Source of the DNA: Roseibaca sp. Y0-43
GTDB lineage: Bacteria; Pseudomonadota; Alphaproteobacteria; Rhodobacterales; Rhodobacteraceae
NCBI RefSeq assembly: GCF_020667835.1
Contig: NZ_JAFMPR010000009.1
Span: forward strand, 1-64,000
DNA length: 64,000 nt
Direction of reading: 5' to 3'
Below the pieces are notes generated by a model. The model was not told the DNA's origin. It searched no databases and was given only the letters and a program-made list of their open reading frames with translations. The translations under genes were made by a program, and so were the position numbers. Positions 9,195 through 33,162 of this stretch are shown here, in pieces (positions within the stretch are counted from its first letter, which is position 1; every line of letters starts with the position of its first letter).

Positions 9195-10255
9195 CGGCGC
9201 TGGCGGACATCCTGCGCCGCCAGATCGCGGCGCAAGGGCCGATCACCGTGGCCGAGTACATGACGCAATGCCTGCTGCATCCGCGTCATGGCTACTATAC
9301 CACCCGCGACCCGCTTGGGCAGACGGGCGATTTCACCACCGCGCCCGAAATTAGCCAGATGTTCGGCGAACTCTTGGGCCTGCTGATCGCGCAGGTCTGG
9401 ATGGACCAAGGCGCAGCCCCCCGCTTCACGCTGGCCGAACTTGGCCCCGGTCGCGGCACGCTGATGGCGGACATCCTGCGCGCCACAGCCCGCGTGCCGG
9501 GGTTTCACGCGGGCGCAGAGCTGCATTTGGTAGAGGCGTCGCCCGTGCTGCGTGCGGCCCAGGCGCAGCGCGTGCCCGGTGCGGTCTGGCATGACAGCGC
9601 CGACAGCTTGCCCGACGACCGCCCCTTGTTTGTAGTGGCCAATGAATTTTTCGACGCCCTGCCCATCCGCCAGTTCCTGCGCCACCCCAAGGGCTGGGCC
9701 GAGCGTGTGGTGGGGCTGGACGGCGACCAGCTTGCCTTCGGCCTGACCCCACCCGCGCCCTTGGCCGCCTTGGACAACCTGCTCGACAACACGCCAGAGG
9801 GCACGATGGTTGAGTCCTGCGCCCCCGCCCTGCCCGTGATCGACGCGCTGAGCACCCGCATCGCTACACAAGGCGGTTTCGCGCTGATCGTCGATTACGG
9901 CGACTGGGGCAGCGCGGGCGACACGTTGCAAGCCATCTGGCAGCAGCAAAAGGACCACCCGCTGGCCCATCCGGGCGACGCGGACCTGACCGCGCATGTC
10001 GATTTCCGCGCCTTGGCCTATGCCAGCCCCTTGGCCGCCACACCGCTTGCCCCGCAAGGCGCACTTCTGGCGGCGCTCGGCATCGGCCAGCGCGCGCAGG
10101 TGCTTGCCCAAGGTCTGACGGACGCGGCGCTGGAAAACCACCTTGCCGCATATCGGCGCTTGACCGACGCGGGGGAAATGGGTCAGCTATTCAAGGCGCT
10201 GGGCCTTTACCCTGTAGGGGCGCCGCAACCGCCCGGTTTTGGACAAGTGACGTGA
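9191..10255 (+). CDS. MidA/NDUFAF7-family SAM-dependent protein arginine methyltransferase
   Basis: A 354-residue member of the Methyltransf_28 family. Start ATG 9191 lies inside the lgt stop. Motifs seen are the N-terminal MTQCLLHPRHGYYTTRDPLG, the glycine-rich SAM site LAELGPGRGTLMADILR, and VVANEFFDALPIRQF. The mitochondrial relative NDUFAF7/MidA methylates an arginine of a complex I subunit, so a complex I assembly role is plausible. For bacterial members this is inference. It is coupled to pgeF by a GTGA overlap. Confidence 0.85.
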   Translation: MTALADILRRQIAAQGPITVAEYMTQCLLHPRHGYYTTRDPLGQTGDFTTAPEISQMFGELLGLLIAQVWMDQGAAPRFTLAELGPGRGTLMADILRATARVPGFHAGAELHLVEASPVLRAAQAQRVPGAVWHDSADSLPDDRPLFVVANEFFDALPIRQFLRHPKGWAERVVGLDGDQLAFGLTPPAPLAALDNLLDNTPEGTMVESCAPALPVIDALSTRIATQGGFALIVDYGDWGSAGDTLQAIWQQQKDHPLAHPGDADLTAHVDFRALAYASPLAATPLAPQGALLAALGIGQRAQVLAQGLTDAALENHLAAYRRLTDAGEMGQLFKALGLYPVGAPQPPGFGQVT

Positions 10256-11010
10256 CGTTGGACATCATCACCTCGGACGCGCTACAGCCCTTTCGGCACG
10301 GGTTTTTCACCCGGCGCGGTGGGGCATCCTCGGGCATTTTCGCGGGGCTGAATTGCGGCACCGGGTCTTCCGACCAAAGCGACAGCGTGCGTATGAACCG
10401 CGCCCGCGTGGCAGAGGCGATGCAGGTTCCAACCGACGCGCTTGTCACCGTGCATCAGGTGCATTCAGCCGATGTGGCCAGCGTGAACGCAGCGCTTGGC
10501 GATGACGAGCGCCCGCGCGCCGACGCGGTCGTGACCGCCACACCGGGGCTGGCGCTGGCCATCCTGACCGCCGATTGCCAGCCGGTCCTGTTCGCCGACC
10601 GCGATGCGGGCGTGATCGGCGCGGCCCATGCGGGCTGGCGCGGCGCGCTGGACGGCGTGCTGGAACAGACGATAGACGCGATGATCGCGCTTGGCGCCCA
10701 ACGCGAGCGCATCACCGCGGTGATCGGCCCCTGCATCAGCCAACGCAACTACGAGGTCGGGCAGGATTTTCTGGAAAAGTTCCTCGACGAAGACCCCGAC
10801 CACATGCGCCATTTCGTCAATGGCGAATGCGGGCGCTACCAGTTCGACCTGCCGGGCTTTGGTCTGGCCCGTCTGCGCGCGGCGGGGGTCGATGCGCATT
10901 GGACCGGGCATTGCACCTATGCCGACCCGGCGGCATTCTATTCCTACCGCCGGTCCTGCCACGAAGGGCAGGCCGATTACGGGCGGCTGATTTCGGTCAT
11001 TCGCCTGTAG
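10252..11010 (+). CDS. pgeF: Peptidoglycan editing factor PgeF (laccase-domain, YfiH-like)
   Basis: A 252-residue cytoplasmic protein of the multicopper-polyphenol-oxidase/YfiH fold. The start is GTG 10252, overlapping the midA stop. Conserved segments are [48 protein letters not shown] and [13 protein letters not shown], which carry the His/Cys active-site residues. In E. coli PgeF removes L-Ser wrongly added to UDP-MurNAc in place of L-Ala. Relatives also act as purine nucleoside phosphorylases. The last 14 bases overlap the convergent YbdK-type gene. Confidence 0.88.
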
Positions 11011-12139
11011 CGTCCAGCCCCGCGCTGAATTCGCCCATCAGGGACCGCACCACGGCGCGCAGGGCTTCGGCCTGATCCGCGCTATCGGCCACGGCCTGCG
11101 CATGAACGGCGCGCTGCCGCTCGGCGCTGGTGCCTTGGGCGACGATGTCCTGCGCCGCGCGCAACTCGTTCAGGCAGCCCAAGGCCATGGCATCTGCGTC
11201 CAGCAGATCAATCAACTCGGCCACCAATTCGCCCATCGGCACAAGCGCGCCGCGCCCAATGTCCAAGAGCCCTTCGCGCGGGCCATAGCGTTGCGCCCGC
11301 CAGCGATTCTCGGCGATCAGGAAGCGGTCATAGATGCGCCAGCGTTGGTTGCGGCGGCGCAGCTCGACCAGCATCCGGGTGATGGATTGCACCATCGCGG
11401 CGATGGTCAGCGTATGCTCCATGATCGGCATGACATCGCAAATCCGCGCCTCGATGGTCGGAAAGCGGGCCGAAGGGCGAATATCCCACCAGATTTTCGA
11501 CGTGTCCTCGATCAGCCCCGCGCCGATCAGCATATCGACCGAGCGGCGATATTCGGCATATGAGATGAAATCAGGCGGTAGGCCCGTGCGCGGCAAATTG
11601 TCGAACACGCTTAGTCGGTAGCTATTGAGCCCGGTATCCTGCCCGCCCCAGAACGGCGAGGAGGTGGACAGCGCCAGCAGATGCGGCAGGAAATAGCTGA
11701 TCTGGCGCATGATATCCATGCGCAAATCGTCATCCGGCAGGCCCACATGCACATGCGTGCCGCAGATCAGCATCCGCCGCACCACGCCACCCAGATCGCG
11801 GGCCAGATCGTCATAGCGGGGCTTTTCGGTGTGCTTGCGCGATTGCCAATCGGCAAACGGGTGGCAGGACACCGCCAAGGGCGCCATGCCGTATTGCGCG
11901 GCGCAAGCGGCAATCGTGCGGCGCAGATGGCCCAGATCGGCGCGCGCCTCGGCCACGCTTTCGCAAATACCGGTGCCGACTTCGATCTGACAGGCTAGAA
12001 ATTCGGGCGAGACCTGATCGCCAAGCGCCTGCGCGCAGTCGCGCATCAGCGCATCGGGCACATCGACCAGCGCGCAGGTCTCGGCATCGACCAGCAGGTA
12101 TTCTTCTTCGATGCCAAGCGTGTATTCGGGCTGTGCCAT
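10997..12139 (-). CDS. YbdK-family carboxylate-amine ligase (glutamate-cysteine ligase 2 fold)
   Basis: A 380-residue enzyme of the GCS2 family. It opens with the characteristic [13 protein letters not shown], in which the Glu residues bind Mg-ATP, followed by [22 protein letters not shown] and [20 protein letters not shown]. coli YbdK has weak gamma-glutamylcysteine ligase activity, and its natural substrate is unclear. The gene converges on pgeF with a 14-base overlap and is divergent from the DUF3445 gene with only 80 bases between the starts. Confidence 0.88.
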
Positions 12140-12219
12140 GGGGCCATGCTGCCGCGAAATCCGCCCTTGCGCAAGAAATTGCTGTGGCGGGGCGAGCGCG
12201 GGCGCGGTAGCGATGGGGC

Positions 12220-12996
12220 ATGATCCTGAACGCGCGCCTGCCTTTTGCCCCTTGGGTGGACCCTGCCCGCCGCCGCTTGCCGGGTGTGATGCCCTTGGCG
12301 CGGGACGAATGGCTACTGATCTCGGACGCTTACGCGGCGCAGATGGCAGAACGCGCGCGGCTTTTGGCAGATCGCCCCGCCGAGGTGACGGCCTGCTTGG
12401 CCGAAGCCGAAGATGCGGCGGCGGAACTGTTGGCGACCGTTCTGGGCGACCTGCCCGCCTTGGGCTTCACGTGCGACGGTCCGCGCATCACATGCCCCGA
12501 TGGGCGCAGAGTGGACCTGTCCGCCCTGCCCCCGCTTCATGCGCTAGGGCTGCTGGTGCAAGAAGATTTCTGCATCCTGCAAAAGCGTGATGGCGCGGAC
12601 GAGCATGTGTTGACGGGCGCGGTGCTGTGTTTTCCGTCCAGCTGGACGCTGGCGCAGAAACTGGGCCGCCCGCTTCTGCGTATTCACGCCCCGGTCGAAA
12701 GCTATGATAGCCAGATGGGCGCGCGGGTGCAGCGGATGTTCGACGCGATCCGCCCGGAACAGCCGCTCTGGCGCGCCAACCTGCTGCGCTACACCAACGC
12801 CGCGCTTTACCAGCCACGCCAAGAATACGCGCCCAAGGACAAGCGCGACGATGGCGATTTCATCCGCTCGGAACGGCAATGCCTGCTGCGCTTGGCCCAA
12901 AGCCGGGCGGTGGTGTTTTCGATCCACACCGCTCAGGTACGGCGGGCGGATCTGACCAAGGCGCAAGCGCAAGCGCTGGCCGAAATTCTGGATTAA
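12220..12996 (+). CDS. DUF3445 haem-dependent oxidative N-demethylase-like protein
   Basis: A 258-residue protein of the DUF3445 family. Members studied elsewhere bind haem b in a PAS-like fold and oxidatively N-demethylate secondary amines such as dimethylamine. Family stretches are [50 protein letters not shown] and [12 protein letters not shown], with [20 protein letters not shown] near the end. The length fits the short subfamily, in which redox partners are separate. No partner reductase or DMG-dehydrogenase-like subunit is adjacent, so activity here is inferred from family only. The stop overlaps the next minus-strand stop by four bases. Confidence 0.78.
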
Positions 12997-13289
12997 CGCA
13001 GGCTGGGGCCAGAGGCGAGCAGCCGCGCGCGATCGGATGCCGCGATGACCGGGCCGCGCAGGCGGGCGGCGCGCGCTCGCAGAGCGGCGGCACGGGCTTG
13101 GGGGGCGGCGGCAAGGCTGACGGCGGTCAGGCTTTCGGGGCGTGCGGCTTGGTCAAGCAGGCCCGAAATCGGCACAAGGCTGGGGGCTGCGCCCTGCGCC
13201 TGCCGGTCGGCGGGCGGCAGGTCAGGGCTGGTCACGCAGGCGGCAAGCCCGGTGCAAAGGCAAAACAGCAAACTGGCGCGGCGCGGCAT
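12993..13289 (-). CDS. Small predicted lipoprotein
   Basis: A 98-residue protein with a signal MPRRASLLFCLCTGLAACVT, where LAAC is a usable lipobox giving a lipidated Cys at about residue 18. The remainder is Ala/Arg-rich, with one likely helix (QARAAALRARAARLRG). No family recognised. It lies downstream of the TadE/TadG-like genes on the same strand, separated from them by a hairpin at 13337-13368. Coding status rests on the lipoprotein start and the tidy convergent end. Confidence 0.55.
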   Translation of the reverse strand: MPRRASLLFCLCTGLAACVTSPDLPPADRQAQGAAPSLVPISGLLDQAARPESLTAVSLAAAPQARAAALRARAARLRGPVIAASDRARLLASGPSLR

Positions 13290-25609: not shown

Positions 25610-25627
25610 ATGGTGCGGTCGAGAAGA
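25610..25627. repeat. Distal attachment site (copy of tRNA-Leu 3' end)
   Basis: An 18-bp exact copy of 33075-33092. The matching stops sharply on the downstream side (GACC here versus CTCG in the tRNA). The 317 bases between the transporter operon and the restriction-modification gene hold the operon terminator, this site and the repeats listed separately; the remainder shows no gene. Confidence 0.88.
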
Positions 25628-25655
25628 GACCGCTTTTCCAAGGCCTAGTCATTGT

Positions 25656-25709
25656 TTTTCAACGACTTTTTGTCACCCGAATTTTCAGCTTTGTAGCAGG
25701 TCTTTGTAG
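25656..25709. repeat. Left-end candidate integrase/excisionase sites
   Basis: TTTTCAACGACTT (25656-25668) is the exact reverse complement of 33024-33036 at the other end of the island. TTTGTAG occurs at 25690-25696 and 25703-25709. The same heptamer occurs twice near the right end (32990-32996 and 33002-33008) with similar spacing (13 versus 12 bases). CTTTGTAGCG is identical at 25702-25711 and 33001-33010. The layout fits arm-type sites flanking the core, but binding is inferred. Confidence 0.6.
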
Positions 25710-25812
25710 CGCAGGTCAAGCCAAAGCGCGCCCCGAACCCGCGCGTAGCAATTCAGCTTGCGATTGCGCGGCCCTCTCTGTTCAATAGCCGCAAATCCGA
25801 CAGGGGCATTCC

Positions 25813-28800
25813 GTGACATTGATTTCCGACTTCATCGCCCGCGTTCAGGACGTCCAGAAAACCGGCATTGCCCGCGAACATGCCTACCGGCCTGCGCTGC
25901 ATGACCTGCTGAAAGCTCTGGGCGATGATCTGGAACCCGTGAACGACCCCGCCCGCTCTGAAGTGGGTGCGCCCGATTTCATCATCCTGCGCGACAACAT
26001 CGCCATTGGCCACCTAGAGGCCAAGGATATCGACATCGACATCCGCGCGATGAAGGACGCGAACAAGCGCCAGAAGGACCGCTATGTGAAGGGTCTGGCC
26101 AACCTGATCTACACCAACTGTCTGGATTGGGATTTCTACCGCAATGGCGAGCTGGTCGCCTCGGTGAAGATCGCGGATTACCTGATGGGCATCCAACCCA
26201 TCCCCGACAACTACACCCAGCTTGAAAACCTGTTGCGCGACTTCATCGCCCAGCGCCCGCAGACCATCACCAGCCCGCGCGACTTGGCAGAGCGGATGGC
26301 GGGCAAGGCAATCCTGATAAAGGACGTGCTGTTCAACGCGCTGCGAACCGATGCCGACATGCAAAGCGAACTGACGGGCCAATACCTTGCCTTCAAGGAA
26401 CACCTTATCCACGACATCGCGCCAGAGGATTTTGCCGACATCTACGCCGAAACCATCGCTTACGGCATGTTCGCGGCGCGCCTGCATGACGACACGCTCG
26501 ACACGTTCAGCCGCCGAGAGGCGCTGGACCTTCTGCCCAAATCCAACCCCTTCCTGCGCAGCCTGTTCAGCTATGTCGCGGGCGTGGACCTAGACGACCG
26601 CATCGCGTGGATACTCGACGACCTTGCCGCCGTGTTCCAAGCCGCGAATGTCAAAAAGATCATGGCCAATTTCGGCAAGCTGACGGGCCAGCAAGACCCG
26701 TTCCTGCACTTCTATGAAACCTTCCTTGCCGCCTATAACCCGGCCAAGCGCAAGGCGCGCGGGGTCTGGTATACGCCCGAACCCGTGGTCAACTTCATCG
26801 TGCGCGCGGTGGATGAGGTGCTGCAAACCGAATTCGGCCTGCCCGACGGGCTGGCGGACACGTCCAAGGTCACGCTGGATTGGGACACGGGCCAGACCGA
26901 CAACAAGGGCCGCGCCGTCACCATCAAGAAAGAGGTGCATCGCGTCCAAATCCTTGACCCGGCCACCGGCACGGGCACCTTTCTGGCAGAGGTCATCAAG
27001 CAGATCGCGCCGAAAATCCAGGGCGTGGCCCCCGGCATGTGGTCGGGCTATATCGAGAATGACCTTATCCCCCGCCTGCACGGGTTCGAGCTGCTGATGG
27101 CGTCCTATGCGATGTGCCACATGAAGCTGGACATGATCTTGACAGAGATGGGCTATAAACCCACCAGCACCCCCCCGCGCCTGTCGGTCTACCTGACGAA
27201 CTCGCTGGAGGAAGGGGAACCCGCCACCCAGAACCTGCTGTTCAGCCAATGGCTGTCACGAGAGGCGAAGGGCGCGAACACCATCAAGCGCGACATGCCG
27301 ATCATGTGCGTCATCGGGAACCCGCCTTACTTGGGCGAGGGTGGCGTGTCCGAGGGGTGGCTTGGCACGCTGATGGATGACTACAAGAAGGAACCGGGCG
27401 GCAAGGAGAAGCTGCGCGAACGCAACCCGAAATGGCTGAACGACCTATATGTGAAGTTCATCCGCCTCTCGTCGCACCTGATCGAAAAGAACGGCGAAGG
27501 GGTCTTGGGCTTCATCACCAACCACGGCTATCTGGACAACCCGACCTTTCGCGGGATGCGCTGGCACCTGCTGCACAGCTTCGACAAGATCTGGGTTCTG
27601 GACCTGCACGGCAATGCCAAGAAGAAAGAGGTCACGCCCGACGGCAAGCCCGACAAGAACGTCTTCGACATTCAACAGGGCGTGTCGATCATTATCGGGG
27701 TGAAGAAGAAAGGCGCGCGCAAAGGTCTGGCGCAGGTCATGCAGGGCGACCTGTGGGGCGCGCGACAGGCGAAATACGAGGCGCTGGAAGCGGCCAGCCT
27801 GACCGCGCCGGTGTTCGAGAAGCTGGAAAGCCCCGCGCCGCAATATCCGTTGGTGCGGCGGGATTTTGCGACGCAGGAAGCGTATGACGCGGGGTTTCAG
27901 ATCAATGCTTTTATGCCGGTGAACTCGGTCGGAATCGTGACCGCGCGGGACGCGCTGACAATCGACATATCCAAAGACGAGCTTTGGAGGCGGGTGCAGG
28001 TCTTTGCCAGCCTTGAGCCGGAAATGGCACGCGAACGCTTCAAACTGGGAAAAGATGTCAGAGACTGGCAGGTCGCTTGGGCACAAGAGGACGCAAATGA
28101 GAACCTAACGCAGGACCGGCTTGAGAGAATCGCCTACCGACCACTCGACAATCGCTGGTCATTCTATACCGGGAACTCACGGGGGTTCATGTGCTACCCG
28201 AGATATGACGTAATGCGACATATGCTTGAAAAGAACTTTGCGCTTGCAACCGCGAGAAGCAACAAGAACCCAAGCCTCGATCATTTCTTCTGTGTCGACG
28301 CGATCATGGAAACGAAATGCGCAGAACGTAGCACTCAGTCCTGCCTTTTCCCCCTCTACCTCTACCCCGACGCGCAAGACCTCGACCAATCCCGCCGGGT
28401 CAATTTTGACCCGAAGCTCTATGCCAAGCTGCGCAAGCTGGCCACGCACCCCGACCACGGCACCCCCGATGAGGTGCAGGTCTTCGACTATATCTATGGC
28501 GTGCTGCATTGCCCCGCCTACCGCGACACCTATGCCGAGTTCCTGAAAATCGACTTCCCGCGCATCCCGTGGCCCAAGACGCCTGATGAATTCTGGGACG
28601 TGTCCGCCAAGGGCCACACCCTGCGCCAGCTTCACCTGATGGACCCCGCCACCATCGGCCCCACGCCCTACCCGTTCATGGGGGACGGCGACAATGTGGT
28701 CGAGAAACCGCGCTATGAGGACGGTCGCGTCTGGATAAACCCCACCCAGTATTTCGACGCAGCACCAGAGGTGTCTTGGGGCTTCTACATCGGCGGCTAC

Positions 28801-28950
28801 CAGCCCGCCCAGAAATGGCTGAAAGACCGCAAGGGCCGCGCGCTCAGCTTCGACGACGTGAAGCACTACCAGCGCATCCTGAAGATACTGGCCGAAACCG
28901 ACCGCGTGATGCAGACGATAGAGATGGATTTGGGGGATGACCCGGCCTGA
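25813..28950 (+). CDS. Single-chain restriction-modification enzyme (type IIG / type ISP-like, no helicase)
   Basis: A 1045-residue protein. Near the N-terminus GAPDFI (D55) and HLEAKD (E69, K71) fit a PD-(D/E)xK nuclease core. A helical connector follows, then an N6-adenine methyltransferase domain with SAM motif LDPATGTGTF (about 381-390) and catalytic NPPY (503-506). Residues about 710-850 resemble the target-recognition domain of type ISP enzymes (RPLDNRWSFYTGNSRGF). The Superfamily 2 helicase that true type ISP enzymes carry between nuclease and methylase is missing, so type IIG action is more likely. It should cut foreign DNA and methylate the host at one site. It is alone, without a separate specificity subunit or methylase. 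Confidence 0.83.
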   Translation: MTLISDFIARVQDVQKTGIAREHAYRPALHDLLKALGDDLEPVNDPARSEVGAPDFIILRDNIAIGHLEAKDIDIDIRAMKDANKRQKDRYVKGLANLIYTNCLDWDFYRNGELVASVKIADYLMGIQPIPDNYTQLENLLRDFIAQRPQTITSPRDLAERMAGKAILIKDVLFNALRTDADMQSELTGQYLAFKEHLIHDIAPEDFADIYAETIAYGMFAARLHDDTLDTFSRREALDLLPKSNPFLRSLFSYVAGVDLDDRIAWILDDLAAVFQAANVKKIMANFGKLTGQQDPFLHFYETFLAAYNPAKRKARGVWYTPEPVVNFIVRAVDEVLQTEFGLPDGLADTSKVTLDWDTGQTDNKGRAVTIKKEVHRVQILDPATGTGTFLAEVIKQIAPKIQGVAPGMWSGYIENDLIPRLHGFELLMASYAMCHMKLDMILTEMGYKPTSTPPRLSVYLTNSLEEGEPATQNLLFSQWLSREAKGANTIKRDMPIMCVIGNPPYLGEGGVSEGWLGTLMDDYKKEPGGKEKLRERNPKWLNDLYVKFIRLSSHLIEKNGEGVLGFITNHGYLDNPTFRGMRWHLLHSFDKIWVLDLHGNAKKKEVTPDGKPDKNVFDIQQGVSIIIGVKKKGARKGLAQVMQGDLWGARQAKYEALEAASLTAPVFEKLESPAPQYPLVRRDFATQEAYDAGFQINAFMPVNSVGIVTARDALTIDISKDELWRRVQVFASLEPEMARERFKLGKDVRDWQVAWAQEDANENLTQDRLERIAYRPLDNRWSFYTGNSRGFMCYPRYDVMRHMLEKNFALATARSNKNPSLDHFFCVDAIMETKCAERSTQSCLFPLYLYPDAQDLDQSRRVNFDPKLYAKLRKLATHPDHGTPDEVQVFDYIYGVLHCPAYRDTYAEFLKIDFPRIPWPKTPDEFWDVSAKGHTLRQLHLMDPATIGPTPYPFMGDGDNVVEKPRYEDGRVWINPTQYFDAAPEVSWGFYIGGYQPAQKWLKDRKGRALSFDDVKHYQRILKILAETDRVMQTIEMDLGDDPA

Positions 28951-29061
28951 CGCTCGCCCCCGCCCGCGATTGATTTTGCACCCCGCATCCGAGCGGCCAA
29001 GATCGACTACACGGCCCAGCGCCTACCCCCCTGCACCCCCTAGCATAGCCCAGAGGATACC

Positions 29062-29430
29062 ATGCCGACCCGCTTTCGTATGACCGCCCTGACCCTTGCC
29101 GCCAGCCTGATGGCCAGCACCGGGCAAGCCTATGTCTCTGGCGGGCATGAATACGGGCTGACCTGCAACCCGGACGGCTATGTGCTGACCTCGCGCTACC
29201 CCGTCGCGCGCACCAAGGGCTTTGGTGCAGCCACCCAAGTGGTGTCGGGTATCGAGAAGCTCTACCTTGGGAAAAGCTGCGATGCCTTCCACCCCATCTT
29301 TGGCGGCGGGCGTTGGTGCTGGGCGAATGGCGGTTTCGTTGCAGAGTTCGCAGAGTTCCGCTTTGGCTTCGCTCGGCAAGAGCTGCACTGCGAGGCAGAG
29401 CCGGGTTTGGGTCTGGAGTGCCTCTGCTAA
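29062..29430 (+). CDS. Small secreted Cys-containing protein, unknown function
   Basis: A 122-residue protein starting at ATG 29062 after AGAGGATACC, a good ribosome site. MPTRFRMTALTLAASLMAST is a Sec signal with cleavage near GQA-YV. The mature part has six Cys (in LTCNPDG, GKSCDAF, RWCWANG, LHCEAE and ECLC), suggesting disulfides in the periplasm or outside. I do not recognise the family. It lies between the restriction-modification gene and the recombinase of the island, so it is cargo. Coding status is supported by start, site and signal peptide. Confidence 0.65.
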   Translation: MPTRFRMTALTLAASLMASTGQAYVSGGHEYGLTCNPDGYVLTSRYPVARTKGFGAATQVVSGIEKLYLGKSCDAFHPIFGGGRWCWANGGFVAEFAEFRFGFARQELHCEAEPGLGLECLC

Positions 29431-29500
29431 GGTTCTGGAATCGGGCAGTTTTGGTGCGGTGTCCGTTAGCCTATACCCCAGCGGTCATGTTGAGGTGAGT

Positions 29501-29568
29501 CCGAAAGGGTGTCCGTAAGGGTTGACTCGGGCTTTCGGTCAGTCTACTCATCGGTCACTACCCTTTCG
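29501..29568. promoter_or_regulatory. Three related CCGAAAG sites around a candidate promoter
   Basis: CCGAAAGGGT (29501-29510) has its inverted match ACCCTTTCG at 29560-29568 (9 bp exact), and CTTTCGG at 29532-29538 is a third inverted copy of CCGAAAG. Between them TTGACT (29522-29527) and TACTCA (29545-29550) are spaced by 17 bases and form a plausible promoter for the recombinase starting at 29585. The cluster could be a resolution site, an autoregulatory operator, or both. Confidence 0.5.
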
Positions 29569-29584
29569 AACACTACGGACTGCC

Positions 29585-30223
29585 ATGACCACGATCTTCT
29601 ATGCCCGCGTCTCGACCACTGACCAGACCCTCGACCACCAAGTCACCCAAGCCCGGAAAGCGGGTTTCGAGATTGACGAGGTGATCGCAGACCACGGGGT
29701 CTCTGGGGTTGCCACGAAGCTCTCGGAACGCCGTGAGGGCCGCAGGCTGTTCGACAAGCTGCGCCGGGGGGATACCTTGGTTGTCCGTTGGGTGGACCGC
29801 TTGGGCCGCAACTATCAAGACGTGACCGACACCATCCGGCACTTCGTGCGGCAGGGGGTGACGATCAAGACGGTCATCAACGGCATGACCTTCGACGGGG
29901 CCACCACAGACCCCACGCAGCAGGCCGTCAGGGACGCGCTCATCGCCTTCATGGCGGCAACGGCACAGGCGCAGGCAGAGGCCACGAAAGAGGCCCAGAA
30001 AGCGGGCATAGAGGCCGCACGCGAGGGGAAACCGCAGGCCTACCGGGGGCGCAAGCCTAGCTATAGCCGGGAACAATTCGAGATGGTGCAGAACATGCTT
30101 GCGGGGGGCACGGCGGGAACCTCTGAGATCGCGAGGGCTACCGACTTGAGCCGCCAGACGGTGCTGCGCATTCGCAACGACATGGCAGAGGCAGAAGCCG
30201 CGTTGGCCCGGTGGGGGCTGTGA
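29585..30223 (+). CDS. Serine recombinase of the resolvase/invertase family
   Basis: A 212-residue protein beginning MTTIFYARVSTTDQTLDHQV, with catalytic Ser10 and nearby Arg8 (YARVS). LVVRWVDRLGRNYQD carries the conserved Arg residues of the catalytic pocket. The C-terminal part (EQFEMVQNMLAGG, SEIARATDLSRQTVLRIRND) is a helix-turn-helix for site binding. Length is typical of small resolvases. The frame is open 21 codons further upstream, but the family start is at 29585. It could resolve multimers of the excised element, invert a segment, or regulate its own promoter. No inverted gene cassette is obvious. Confidence 0.88.
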   Translation: MTTIFYARVSTTDQTLDHQVTQARKAGFEIDEVIADHGVSGVATKLSERREGRRLFDKLRRGDTLVVRWVDRLGRNYQDVTDTIRHFVRQGVTIKTVINGMTFDGATTDPTQQAVRDALIAFMAATAQAQAEATKEAQKAGIEAAREGKPQAYRGRKPSYSREQFEMVQNMLAGGTAGTSEIARATDLSRQTVLRIRNDMAEAEAALARWGL

Positions 30224-30355
30224 GGGAGCCTCAGGGTGCCCAGCGCCCGTTCCTGTCGCGGGGTATCTGTCTTGCCGAGGTGAATGTCCGCGTGGGCAAT
30301 TAACCCACACTTACGCCCTCACAAAACCGTTTCGGGCACACGCAAATCGACCGAC

Positions 30356-30383
30356 GGCCCCTGCCTGATGGCGGGGGTCTTTT
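30356..30383 (+). terminator. Terminator after the serine recombinase
   Basis: GGCCCCTGCC and GGCGGGGGTC form a 10-bp stem (two G-U pairs) with loop TGAT, followed by TTTT. It lies within the 207-base gap between the recombinase and the ParB-like gene, only 47 bases before the latter's start, so it may also act as an attenuator. Confidence 0.7.
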
Positions 30384-30430
30384 GCATTCCGGCCTTCTCA
30401 AGTGGCCGCGTGTTCACTCAAGGAAACCCC

Positions 30431-31240
30431 ATGACAGCCAAAGCGAAAACCCCACGAACCCCAACCTACCGCCGCGCCAATGTGAACCTGCGCGAGATCA
30501 ATTTCGACCCAGAGTTCTCCATCCGTGACATCCAAGAGCACCATGTCAGGACGTTGGTGGCTGCGCTGCGCACCAAAGGAAAGCTCGACCCGATCTTGCT
30601 TCTGGATGACAAAAGGAACCCTGAGCAGCCCAAGCTGACCTTGATCGACGGGCACCACCGGGTCGCGGCATACAAGACGCAGCAGCGGTCACAAAAACAC
30701 CCCAAGCCAGTGAATGCCCTCATCGTGTCATGTGATGAGATCACGGCGCACCGTCTGGCCGCCCAGCGCAACAGCAAAGACAAGCTACCTCTGACCACCA
30801 CAGAGAAGCTGAATCTGGCTTGGAAGCTGGTTTGGCTTTCAGAGGCCGCGCTCTCGAAGGCCGAGATTGTGAACGACACGGGGGTCAGTCGCACGACCGT
30901 CCACAACATGCGCAAGCGCCGCAGGCAGATGCTAGAGGCTGGAAAGGAACCGACAGGGGAATGGTGGAAAGACTCGAAAGACAACAGCCTAGGGACACAG
31001 GAGGAGACTGATTTGGACAAGAAGCTCGAGAAGTATGTCGACGCGCTGAAAGGTCCGGCTGAGGCGATGCGAAGGGAACCTGCCGAGGTGAAATGGGGCG
31101 TCCTTGAATATGTCTTCGGAACCTATGAAGCACGGCAAATTGCTTGGCACGGCATCTACACGGCACAAGACGATTTCGAGCTGGACGCACCCCAACTAGA
31201 ACATGTGATAACCGAACTAGACGAAAACTGCGACTTCTAG
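30431..31240 (+). CDS. ParB N-terminal domain protein with helix-turn-helix
   Basis: A 269-residue protein from ATG 30431 with AAGGA eight bases upstream. An N-terminal ParB/sulfiredoxin-fold domain is seen at about 15-105 (VNLREINFD, HHVRTLVAALRTKGKLDPIL, LIDGHHRVAAY). A helix-turn-helix follows (SKAEIVNDTGVSRTTVHNMR), then a charged C-terminus rich in Asp/Glu. Such proteins can bind DNA and CTP and act in partition, as nucleases, or as regulators. No parA gene accompanies it, so partition is unlikely and regulation or element maintenance is more plausible. It converges on the integrase gene. Confidence 0.75.
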   Translation: MTAKAKTPRTPTYRRANVNLREINFDPEFSIRDIQEHHVRTLVAALRTKGKLDPILLLDDKRNPEQPKLTLIDGHHRVAAYKTQQRSQKHPKPVNALIVSCDEITAHRLAAQRNSKDKLPLTTTEKLNLAWKLVWLSEAALSKAEIVNDTGVSRTTVHNMRKRRRQMLEAGKEPTGEWWKDSKDNSLGTQEETDLDKKLEKYVDALKGPAEAMRREPAEVKWGVLEYVFGTYEARQIAWHGIYTAQDDFELDAPQLEHVITELDENCDF

Positions 31241-31264
31241 CAGAGACACATGGTCACCTCTATT

Positions 31265-31280
31265 GTGGTCATATGACCAC
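31265..31280. promoter_or_regulatory. Perfect 16-bp palindrome between ParB-like gene and integrase
   Basis: GTGGTCATATGACCAC is its own reverse complement. It lies 24 bases after the ParB-like stop, in the 129-base convergent gap. It looks like an operator or binding site for a dimeric protein. A partial copy, ATGGTCAC, lies just upstream. Confidence 0.5.
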
Positions 31281-31286
31281 CTTGTG

Positions 31287-31313
31287 CGGCCCTGAGGGAT
31301 ACCCTTGGGGCCG
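31287..31313. terminator. Bipartite hairpin between convergent island genes
   Basis: CGGCCC pairs with GGGCCG (31308-31313) and, inside, AGGG pairs with CCCT around a 3-nt loop. There is no T-run on either strand, so it is only a possible bidirectional terminator for the ParB-like and integrase genes. Confidence 0.35.
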
Positions 31314-31369
31314 TCACGAACACGGCCAGACGCCCACTGAACCCCAAGAAAACGCGGCGTTTGGCACTG

Positions 31370-32989
31370 TTAGACGTCATATCGGGGGAATCGGCTGATT
31401 GCCTCTGCGATGTCCTCTAGCGAAGGCGTCTCATAGATTGCCCCAACACTACCCGAACTATGCCCGCAAATCCCGTCCCTCAGTCGCTGTTCGATTCCTG
31501 CCCGTGCAGCTCTGCGTTTGAACGTATGCCGCCAAGCATGGTTTGGCCGAATTCGCGGGTCTTCGACTCCCTGCTTCCGAACCCAGTCTGCAAGCTTGGT
31601 CCGCGCAATCACATGCGGGGGCCGAGGTGGGTTCAGCGGGTCTATCGGGGTATCGCTAGCAGGCTTGCAGAAGAGATAGCCGTCATTGCTATCAGCGACA
31701 AAATCAATGAGGCCTTGCTCCAAAAGGTGCTCATGCAGCACAACTTCACGAAACTTGTCACCCTTTACCGCTCCAGCTTCGGGTGTGATGGTGATGAACC
31801 AAAACCCTGAGCGGTGACGCTGGAAATCTTGCTTTCTTAGCTGAGTGATTTCCCCAACGCGCGCACCCGTGTAGGCACAAATCCAAGGCACCCAGCGATA
31901 CGCGGCCCGGAGTTGTTCCCCAATGCGCGGTGACATGGGGGCAAGGCTTGCGTTCAAGATCAGCTTGATTTCTGCGTCGTTAAATTCGTCTTGCCGCGTC
32001 TTCGGCGGTTTTGCTGGGCCAGCTACCTTGACGCCTTCGAATGGATTTTTAGGGATTTTCTTCTGCTCGACAACCCATCCGAACACCCGGCGCGCAGCAC
32101 TCAACCAGATTTCGTTCACTGTGCGAGTGCCCCGCCCCTCTGTAATCAGGCTGTTTTTCCAGTTGATGGCGTCCTCTGCGGTGAAAAGCGCAACGTCCTT
32201 ACCTTCATGGGCAACATCAAGAGCTTGGAAAACACCTCGCCAGCGGTTGACAGTCGACGCCGCAGGTTTCCTTTCTGCCACCCAAGCTTCGAATGCTTGC
32301 CACGCGGTCCAGCCTGCAAGCTTCTCCTTTCGGACGACGCGCGCCAGATCAGACACGTCAGGGAATCTTCGAAGCCTAGTGTCTTCCCCGAAATCGCCCA
32401 AAGCGCGACGCCTGCGAACCCCAAGTGCTGCAACGAAGTCATTCTCGAGTGCATCAATAAGTTCACATCGCTGACCTTCTGACAGCCCTACCCCTTCAGA
32501 GATCAGAAATGCATCAATGTCGGAATGCGCCGCAACGAAAGCTCTGACACGCGCGGCATGTTGTGGTGTCCGTTCTTCGCTTTCGTCAAAGTCCTCTGGA
32601 TTACCAAGGGTTGAACAGCCGCTTTCGACAACCTGTTCGTAGGCGTCGTAGATATGTTCGATCTCTTCGGCAGTTTCAGGCGGGTCTGTGCGCTCCTGCG
32701 TGAACTCTGCATACCAGCGCCCGATAAGAGCGTGCATTTGCCGCTGAGTGAGCGTTTGCACCGAACTCGCATTGCGAATTCTGTCTATGCGATCTTCGAT
32801 TTCGGCAAGCCAGTCGAGGAACTCTCGCTTGGCACGGCCTGACGGCAACCCCGAATCTCTGCGAAAGCGTTCTTCTTGAGATTTCCCATACGCTGCCCGA
32901 TAGGCATCCCGAATGTCCTTTGGGATACCCTTTCGGGCAAACCAGTCGCCGTTCCTATCGCGCTTGAGAGACGTCATGCAGATAGCCAT
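31370..32989 (-). CDS. Tyrosine recombinase / phage-type integrase of the island
   Basis: A 539-residue integrase from ATG 32989 (AAGGG nine bases upstream); ATG 32977 is an alternative. Catalytic residues in order: Arg377 in TGARVGE, a Lys near 412, His484 and Arg487 in HAWRH, His510 in GHSSG, and Tyr519 in AIYET. A SAM-like core-binding domain occupies about 225-320 and an N-terminal arm-binding part lies before it. At 539 residues it is longer than classic phage integrases (about 350-400) and like those of alphaproteobacterial islands. It faces away from the tRNA it uses, 86 bases from the core site, and should catalyse integration and excision at tRNA-Leu(GAG). Confidence 0.92.
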   Translation of the reverse strand: MAICMTSLKRDRNGDWFARKGIPKDIRDAYRAAYGKSQEERFRRDSGLPSGRAKREFLDWLAEIEDRIDRIRNASSVQTLTQRQMHALIGRWYAEFTQERTDPPETAEEIEHIYDAYEQVVESGCSTLGNPEDFDESEERTPQHAARVRAFVAAHSDIDAFLISEGVGLSEGQRCELIDALENDFVAALGVRRRRALGDFGEDTRLRRFPDVSDLARVVRKEKLAGWTAWQAFEAWVAERKPAASTVNRWRGVFQALDVAHEGKDVALFTAEDAINWKNSLITEGRGTRTVNEIWLSAARRVFGWVVEQKKIPKNPFEGVKVAGPAKPPKTRQDEFNDAEIKLILNASLAPMSPRIGEQLRAAYRWVPWICAYTGARVGEITQLRKQDFQRHRSGFWFITITPEAGAVKGDKFREVVLHEHLLEQGLIDFVADSNDGYLFCKPASDTPIDPLNPPRPPHVIARTKLADWVRKQGVEDPRIRPNHAWRHTFKRRAARAGIEQRLRDGICGHSSGSVGAIYETPSLEDIAEAISRFPRYDV

Positions 32990-33036
32990 TTTGTAGTGCC
33001 CTTTGTAGCGAAGGGGCAACCACAAGTCGTTGAAAA
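32990..33036. repeat. Right-end candidate integrase arm sites
   Basis: TTTGTAG at 32990-32996 and 33002-33008, and AAGTCGTTGAAAA at 33024-33036, match the left-end set: the heptamer in direct orientation, the 13-mer inverted. They lie between the integrase start and the core site, where integrase or excisionase would bind and where the int promoter should be, so binding could also autoregulate int. Confidence 0.58.
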
Positions 33037-33074
33037 CACCTAACTATTTGGCATCACAACATAAAAGGCAAGGG

Positions 33075-33092
33075 ATGGTGCGGTCGAGAAGA
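33075..33092. repeat. Proximal attachment site inside tRNA-Leu 3' end
   Basis: An exact 18-bp copy of 25610-25627, covering the CCA, acceptor strand and part of the T-stem of the tRNA gene. The tRNA remains complete, as expected for islands that carry a replacement 3' end. Confidence 0.88.
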
Positions 33093-33162
33093 CTCGAACT
33101 TCCACGGGAGTTACCCCACAGCGACCTCAACGCTGCGCGTCTACCAATTCCGCCACGACCGC
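33076..33162 (-). tRNA. tRNA-Leu, anticodon GAG
   Basis: An 87-nt gene including an encoded CCA. The acceptor stem GCGGTCG pairs with CGACCGC; the D-arm is GGCGGAATTGGTAGACGC; the anticodon stem-loop CAGCG-TTGAGGT-CGCTG gives anticodon GAG (codon CUC, with CUU by wobble). A long variable arm (TGGGGTAACTCCCGT) and a T-arm with GTTCGAGTC follow, as in class II tRNAs. It is the target of the island. Confidence 0.96.

Follow-up and report, generated by a model that had tools for sequence, protein, structure and literature searches.

Our analysis of a 64,000-nucleotide stretch of Roseibaca sp. Y0-43 (contig NZ_JAFMPR010000009.1, positions 1 to 64,000; hereafter the window) shows that the segment at positions 25610–33092 is a tRNA-targeted integrative genomic island: the tRNA gene is restored, a displaced copy of its 3' end lies at the other border, a tyrosine integrase adjoins the tRNA, and relatives have empty sites. 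The island is probably a compact integrative mobile element, with an integrase accompanied by a resolvase that acts on multimers, a multi-copy stage, a ParB-like protein for maintenance, and a restriction–modification (R-M) enzyme as cargo. Judged by sequence comparison, it is a member of a recurrent class, similar small islands being present in many alphaproteobacteria.

The borders are formed by an exact 18-bp direct repeat, ATGGTGCGGTCGAGAAGA (coordinates of all features are given in Table 1). Its right copy consists of the final 17 nt of tRNA-Leu(GAG) plus one base; this gene, identified by ARAGORN, is intact and is the single tRNA of the whole window. The left flank is matched in 36 of 37 genomes of the genus, the window's own counted. 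An empty-site survey of 29 relatives (loci L003–L031) yields four empty sites (L003–L006), where the permease terminator is followed by one 18-bp copy inside an intact tRNA-Leu(GAG), both the island and the second core copy are absent, and the DNA past the tRNA matches the window's right flank at 82–84%. In the remaining 25 relatives the available stretch ends before any tRNA-Leu, so that these cannot be scored as occupied or empty. The four empty sites confirm the borders; the identity and extent of the island are near certain. An earlier note on this DNA had placed the repeat at the same coordinates, with its right copy inside an intact tRNA-Leu, had located the integrase, the R-M enzyme, a Cys-containing protein, the serine recombinase, and the ParB/HTH protein where we find them, and had expected an empty site with a single core at tRNA-Leu; the outcome it named as contrary, the island or the left repeat in all relatives, did not occur.

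The nine nearest relatives of the integrase (48–60% identity; eight from the genome scan, one from viral contigs) all lie 86–90 bp downstream of tRNA-Leu genes (seven GAG, two TAA). Seven of the ten elements of this tRNA-Leu clade, the window included, are closed by the final 17 nt of the tRNA; among the others, L100 and L178 reach contig ends, and L133 (9829–11435), at tRNA-Leu(GAG) of a Roseovarius, is a decayed relative with its integrase in several broken pieces. The heptamer TTTGTAG occurs five times on the plus strand of the window, four times at the island ends, and its complement does not occur there. Counted from the core, the integrase-side arm-site candidates (CTACAAA) stand at +68/+80 throughout the seven closed islands of the clade, the window included, one of the sites in L104 having an altered last base. 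On the distal side, one site at −69/−70 is present in all seven islands, and a second, at −81/−82, in five of them. The inverted-repeat arms, which lie just inward of the two cores, are a possible integrase or accessory site.

We followed the integrase family through 81 loci, that is, the window and 80 of the 265 loci found, 34 of them extended with neighbouring stretches. An island was considered closed if the integrase has a tRNA upstream and, downstream, 15 nt or more of the 3' end of this tRNA are repeated exactly. This rule yields 40 closed islands, which measure 4454–23073 bp (median 12.4 kb), occupy eight kinds of tRNA, and occur in hosts ranging from Paracoccaceae to Sphingomonadaceae and Acetobacteraceae. 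One small serine recombinase is present in 35 of the 40. The flank control, performed before extension, shows a serine recombinase downstream of the integrase at 40 of 80 loci (668 kb) and upstream at 1 of 80 (741 kb). The control with another integrase family (ten regions from weaker matches with 26–28% identity, same closure rule) shows it in two of seven closed islands; the difference between 35/40 and 2/7 has Fisher p 0.0028, computed on related and hence not independent sequences. Three regions were left out of this control, namely G323, where the repeat falls short of the tRNA end, and G067 and G313, where the closed stretch runs from the tRNA to a further copy of its end in front of the integrase; with the latter two counted, the control becomes 3/9. 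In G313 (L250–L251), two copies of the tRNA-Ser end enclose a ParB-like gene and a serine recombinase, and another integrase comes next, an arrangement that looks like a tandem or split element.

At a 45% identity threshold, the serine recombinases of the closed islands form eight subtypes. Subtype and integrase lineage are not coupled in the tRNA-Leu clade: the L104 integrase is 65% identical to that of L103 and 50% to that of the window, whereas its serine recombinase has 68% identity to the recombinase of the window and 28% to that of L103. The exchange for unrelated types suggests that it is the function that is retained and not a particular gene. The smallest island, L144 (4454 bp), has an integrase, a ParB-like gene (36% identity to the window's protein over 165 residues), and a serine recombinase of another subtype; the sole further frame longer than 200 aa overlaps the ParB-like gene. 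The comparison corrects the earlier note, which had listed the serine recombinase as one more cargo gene: present in 35 of the 40 closed islands, this gene is part of the backbone. The note's complete set of integrase, R-M enzyme, resolvase, and ParB was not found beside tRNA-Leu(GAG) elsewhere: related islands at tRNA-Leu share only the integrase and a serine recombinase, the closest such pair being that of L098 (60 and 61% identity), with different remaining genes. No description of the alphaproteobacterial island group was found in the open-access literature, judged by titles and the beginnings of abstracts.

The serine recombinase of the window is 61, 68, and 71% identical to those of L098, L104, and G749. 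Among 385 genomes, a search with the resolvase only (E 1e-40) has matches in two: that of the window, and G749, where the gene likewise sits in a closed tRNA island (9.5 kb). Two features of Tn3-type resolution are recognised in the sequence: the serine resolvase is small and combines a catalytic with an HTH domain, and a predicted res with three subsites lies upstream. Six islands (window, L098, L104, L128, L152, and G749) have a res-like array in the approximately 130 bp preceding the gene. The best 32-column block of their alignment is site II, where 21 columns are shared by five or more of the six sequences (in 200 shuffles, mean 5.4 and maximum 9 conserved columns); the start-to-start spacing of sites I and II is 50 bp in the window, L098, and L152, and the stretches separating the sites are poorly conserved. 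The half-site TGTCYNNTA, which we take to be the consensus, is weak alone, its count in the window being reached in 52 of 500 shuffles; the case for a resolvase rests on the conserved geometry. The centres of sites I and II are 52 bp apart in the window; according to excerpts of PMC12217951, the res of SGI1 and Tn3 is about 120 bp long, with a 28-bp box I and the I–II centres about five turns apart.

The best PHROG match of the serine recombinase is named DNA invertase, and PinQ, a serine invertase of a cryptic prophage, is described in part of PMC12529663 as blocking phage by inversion. Yet it is quite improbable that the gene of the window is an invertase or a passenger outside the element's life cycle: no second copy of site I or II is present in the 64-kb window within 8 or 10 mismatches, and serine recombinases are present in 35 of 40 closed islands and are replaced by unrelated subtypes. 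A resolvase with a full res prefers direct repeats in one molecule (PMC12217951, in the part seen), making a multimer a plausible substrate; as a single res copy is found in the window, the natural substrate would be a circle in which two or more copies of the element are joined. The serine recombinase is therefore likely a multimer resolvase, and this implies an extrachromosomal multi-copy stage. The available part of PMC5704250 mentions a resolvase once, in a reference entry.

The proposed life cycle would be as follows. The tyrosine integrase, by its presumed catalysis and with arm sites flanking the 18-bp core, would insert a circle at the 3' end of tRNA-Leu(GAG), restoring the gene. The excised element would pass through a joined multi-copy stage, either by plasmid-like replication or because it arrives as a concatemer that a helper phage has packaged. 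The Tn3-type resolvase would act on the res directly upstream of its own gene and, as the anatomy suggests, reduce circular dimers or multimers of the element to monomers. The ParB-like protein may be a DNA-binding maintenance or replication factor, and the type IIG-like enzyme would be cargo that, to judge from its family, protects the host from phages and makes loss of the element costly.

Several observations weigh against this reading. Five of the 40 closed islands (L112, L116, L123, L134, and L141) have no serine recombinase, and these make up all but one of a six-member tRNA-Ser integrase subclade. Among the 41 unclosed loci (nine without a detected tRNA, many stopping at contig ends), 11 have a serine recombinase match and 30 do not, five of the latter extending more than 26 kb past the tRNA. 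The ParB-like gene is present in only 7 of the 40 closed islands. The res plan is seen for the window's resolvase subtype alone; for other subtypes, simple half-site counts are high in some and zero in several. Since the six resolvase genes are related, shared descent may be behind part of the res conservation. Finally, no replication protein, excisionase, relaxase, or packaging gene is recognised among the five window proteins, so that the multi-copy stage is something we infer.

The integrase family is shared with capsid-encoding proviruses. Integrase alignment against viral contigs returned 83 relatives, and 80 loci were retained from these; with L330, found via the resolvase, the scan covered 81 loci. 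Genes for portal, head protein, and large terminase (names from PHROG matches of L276 and L266, carried to other loci by profiles) are present in 64, 63, and 52 of them, and a serine recombinase in five, L330 included, or in 4 of the 80 loci found by the integrase; many of these loci have only about 10 kb after the integrase, and therefore later genes were possibly missed. In contrast, the profile scan finds portal, head, and terminase genes in none of the 40 closed islands, the window included. As the viral contigs were selected for viral genes, this contrast is partly by choice; the clade split is unaffected. A tree of the integrases (quick method, midpoint root) has 100 rows, 40 from the islands and 60 from the 64 contigs with a portal gene. 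It places 59 of 60 capsid-side integrases in one clade, and the resolvase label requires 4 changes on it, versus 29 in shuffles; the exceptions are viral contig L260 among the islands and islands L132 and L148 beside the capsid clade. Thus, the proviruses have the integrase family of the window island, but differ in having capsid genes, rarely a serine recombinase, and integrases mostly in a separate clade. The provirus group L252–L326, with many members of 14–20 kb, portal, head, and terminase genes, and seldom a serine recombinase, possibly represents capsid-forming satellites; the window island is not one, given the lack of these genes in its class. Single-query searches of viral contigs yield no match for the ParB-like protein, two for the integrase, and one for the resolvase (L330, 73%). 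L330 also has a ParB-like match (26%); an integrase relative did not turn up in its record, an empty answer that proves nothing.

This kinship bears on one special case of the compact mobile element, a phage satellite replicated and packaged by its helper as a head-full concatemer, with the resolvase making monomers before integration. We regard it as a serious candidate, somewhat short of an even chance. The integrase shared with proviruses, many of them 14–20 kb and encoding portal, head protein, and large terminase, points this way, as do an internal virion protein family with an endolysin domain (phrog_342) in L098 (17725–20703) and L104 (14536–18381) and an antirepressor in L098, whereas portal, head, and terminase genes are missing from all closed islands, and the PHROG matches of the window comprise integrase, serine recombinase, ParB-like, and methylase families, with no structural phage gene. 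A precedent is PICMI, packaged as about 8-copy concatemers without capsid remodelling, although the available main text on it does not mention a resolvase (PMC10803314). PICMI resembles the window island in its very small size, its integrase, the lack of capsid-remodelling genes, and host protection, and differs in lying next to fis in Vibrionaceae, with an integrase, alpA, and primase set (PMC10803314, in part). The window island itself is not a PICMI, as it occupies a tRNA-Leu site and AlpA and primase are unmatched among its five proteins.

The other special case of the mobile element is conjugative hitchhiking as in SGI1, with mobilisation by a conjugative plasmid and the resolvase clearing multimers from plasmid-like replication; this is rather unlikely. 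A protein cluster common to four resolvase-less islands (L112, L116, L123, and L134) fits it, and by eye we take this cluster to be DotA-like. SGI1, too, is an integrated island with an integrase and a resolvase–res pair, a small serine resolvase with a three-box res just upstream and a 28-bp box I, and its resolvase removes SGI1 multimers (PMC12217951, in part). Unlike the window island, which has 7.5 kb, lies at tRNA-Leu, and has no relaxase or transfer gene recognised among its five proteins (oriT and oriV were not searched), SGI1 is moved by conjugative plasmids of the IncA/IncC groups and possesses oriT and oriV (PMC12217951, same excerpts). The integrase has 28 matches in plasmid records, all below 60% identity, and one fragment in phage records, and the ParB-like protein has no match in either collection; thus, no free plasmid form is seen. 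A Gamma-mobile-trio element was rejected, as the marker GmtY scores 16.7 bits, far below the cut-off of 340. On balance, a phage helper is slightly favoured over conjugation. The available parts of these sources show that the integrase-plus-resolvase design is already known from SGI1, and small concatemer-packaged satellites from PICMI.

It is quite improbable that the island is what remains of an old prophage, with the integrase retained and other genes gathered since. The integrase family is common to proviruses, and L133, with its integrase in broken frames, is a decayed element at the same tRNA; but all five genes of the island are open, the attachment ends and arm sites are intact, and the 4.5-kb relative keeps three backbone gene kinds, as in the window. 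The earlier note saw a small integrated defence element with maintenance genes, and the evidence for this is good: empty sites, conserved attachment arms, an R-M gene as cargo, and a resolvase preceded by a res-like array; as the note also stated, no capsid or transfer gene is recognised among the five window proteins in family scans. Its suggestion that the element is satellite-like and moves with help fits this lack, the compact size of the 40 closed relatives, and the integrase family common to capsid-encoding proviruses.

The modelled ParB-like protein has a ParB/Srx N-domain followed by a DNA-binding helical domain; family scans reveal no ParA among the five window proteins, and parS was not searched. 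Its C-terminus is an acidic ...DENCDF (31211–31240), and tail residues 239–269 have predicted local distance difference test (pLDDT) values below 50 in the model and are disordered. A terminal Phe is common to the seven ParB-like proteins of closed islands, with DF as the ending in five, and the remaining tail aligns poorly. Among the divergent ParB-like relatives identified in the examined loci (these seven included), 16 of 25 have Phe as the last residue, compared with 95 of the 2666 other open frames that reach 250 aa, a comparison involving kin that are not independent; this ending is seen in none of the 40 integrases and none of the 35 serine recombinases of closed islands. The two single-stranded DNA-binding (SSB) proteins of the host end in DMDDEIPF and DRDDEIPF; the acidic ...DF tip of the ParB-like protein resembles these tails and might be an SSB-like contact tip.

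The best PADLOC model for the R-M enzyme is REase_MTase_IIG (1011.7 bits). Of the type IIG features, the methylase and the specificity domain are found by profile, and the nuclease by eye alone; an NPPY methylase motif and a PD-(D/E)xK-like stretch, as we take them to be, can be read in the translation. By its family, the gene is likely to give defence. LlaBIII, LlaGI, and the enzyme of PDB 7lo5 likewise combine a methylase with a Type_ISP_C specificity domain, but the LlaGI and LlaBIII chains have 1406–1578 aa, and only their C-terminal half aligns to the 1045 aa of the window enzyme (from residue 898 of LlaBIII). Family scans of these 1045 aa match no helicase family, hence the window enzyme is not a Type ISP restriction enzyme, which has a helicase-like ATPase in the same chain. 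Full-length relatives on plasmids have at most 69.6% identity. The resolvase-less tRNA-Ser island L141 encodes a full-length relative with 55% identity, 9800–13036 from the tRNA end. The 122-aa Cys-containing protein has no family match in four libraries and has relatives in 8 of 294 other genomes of the family.

Cargo of the sister islands was analysed by scanning selected proteins (20 with PADLOC, 20 with Pfam, and 10 with PHROGs). Matches include MmeI-type R-M (L103), a DrmMI/type IIG-like protein (L106), type I restriction subunits (L125 and L135), Lamassu LmuA/LmuB (L160), caspase and TIR-like proteins (L152), a cytosine methylase with a SIR2/STAND protein (L150), a PD-T4-7-like protein (L102), and a QueC-like protein (L101). 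PADLOC at 1e-5 gives no match for 8 of the 20 proteins, and two more matches are weak (L157 and L162). A shared cluster that by eye resembles HsdM occurs in six islands, and RNase H genes occur in 8 of the 40 closed islands.

Table 1. Features of the island and of its target tRNA gene in the window.
Feature	Position	Strand	Comment
Distal attachment core	25610–25627		Copy of tRNA-Leu 3' end; exact 18-bp repeat
23-nt inverted repeat (83%), pair I2	distal arm 25656–25678, proximal arm 33014–33036
Distal arm-site candidates, TTTGTAG x2	25690–25709 (starts 25690, 25703)
Type IIG-like R-M enzyme, single-chain	25813–28950	+	Adenine methylase and Type_ISP_C specificity domain; 1045 aa
Putative secreted Cys-containing protein	29062–29430	+	122 aa; signal-like N-terminus, several Cys
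Predicted res site	29460–29580	+	Sites I, II, III, upstream of serine recombinase
res site I	29460–29487		28 bp, centre AT
res site II	29510–29541		32 bp
res site III	about 29552–29580		~29 bp; less clear than I and II
Small serine recombinase, read as resolvase	29585–30223	+	212 aa; Resolvase and HTH_7 domains
ParB-like protein	30431–31240	+	ParB/Srx fold and helical domain; disordered acidic ...DF tail
Tyrosine integrase	31370–32989	-	Phage_integrase domain
Proximal arm-site candidates, TTTGTAG x2	32990–33008 (starts 32990, 33002)
Proximal attachment core	33075–33092		Within tRNA gene
tRNA-Leu(GAG)	33076–33162	-	Integration target, stays intact; ARAGORN

A broader and speculative proposal, to which we give little weight as a whole, is that the islands form a widespread unnamed family of capsid-less two-recombinase alphaproteobacterial satellites with defence genes, sharing an integrase ancestor with capsid-encoding proviruses. 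The circle would replicate upon arrival of a helper, in one lineage with the SSB-like ...DF tip of a ParB-fold protein recruiting the host replication-restart machinery; it would then travel as a concatemer, and be resolved to monomers before re-entering a tRNA gene.

When a small island has an integrase and defence genes as cargo, but lacks recognised replication or transfer genes, it is easily mistaken for a remnant. A conserved resolvase with its res provides anatomical evidence of a multi-copy stage and makes the question of remnant versus live element assayable. This integrase beside a tRNA, with a small serine recombinase within 5–23 kb, can serve as a search handle for alphaproteobacterial elements and their cargo. 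An SSB-like tip on a ParB-fold protein is a testable idea of how elements without a replicase may be copied, and a role of the 122-aa Cys-containing protein in superinfection exclusion is conceivable and likewise testable.

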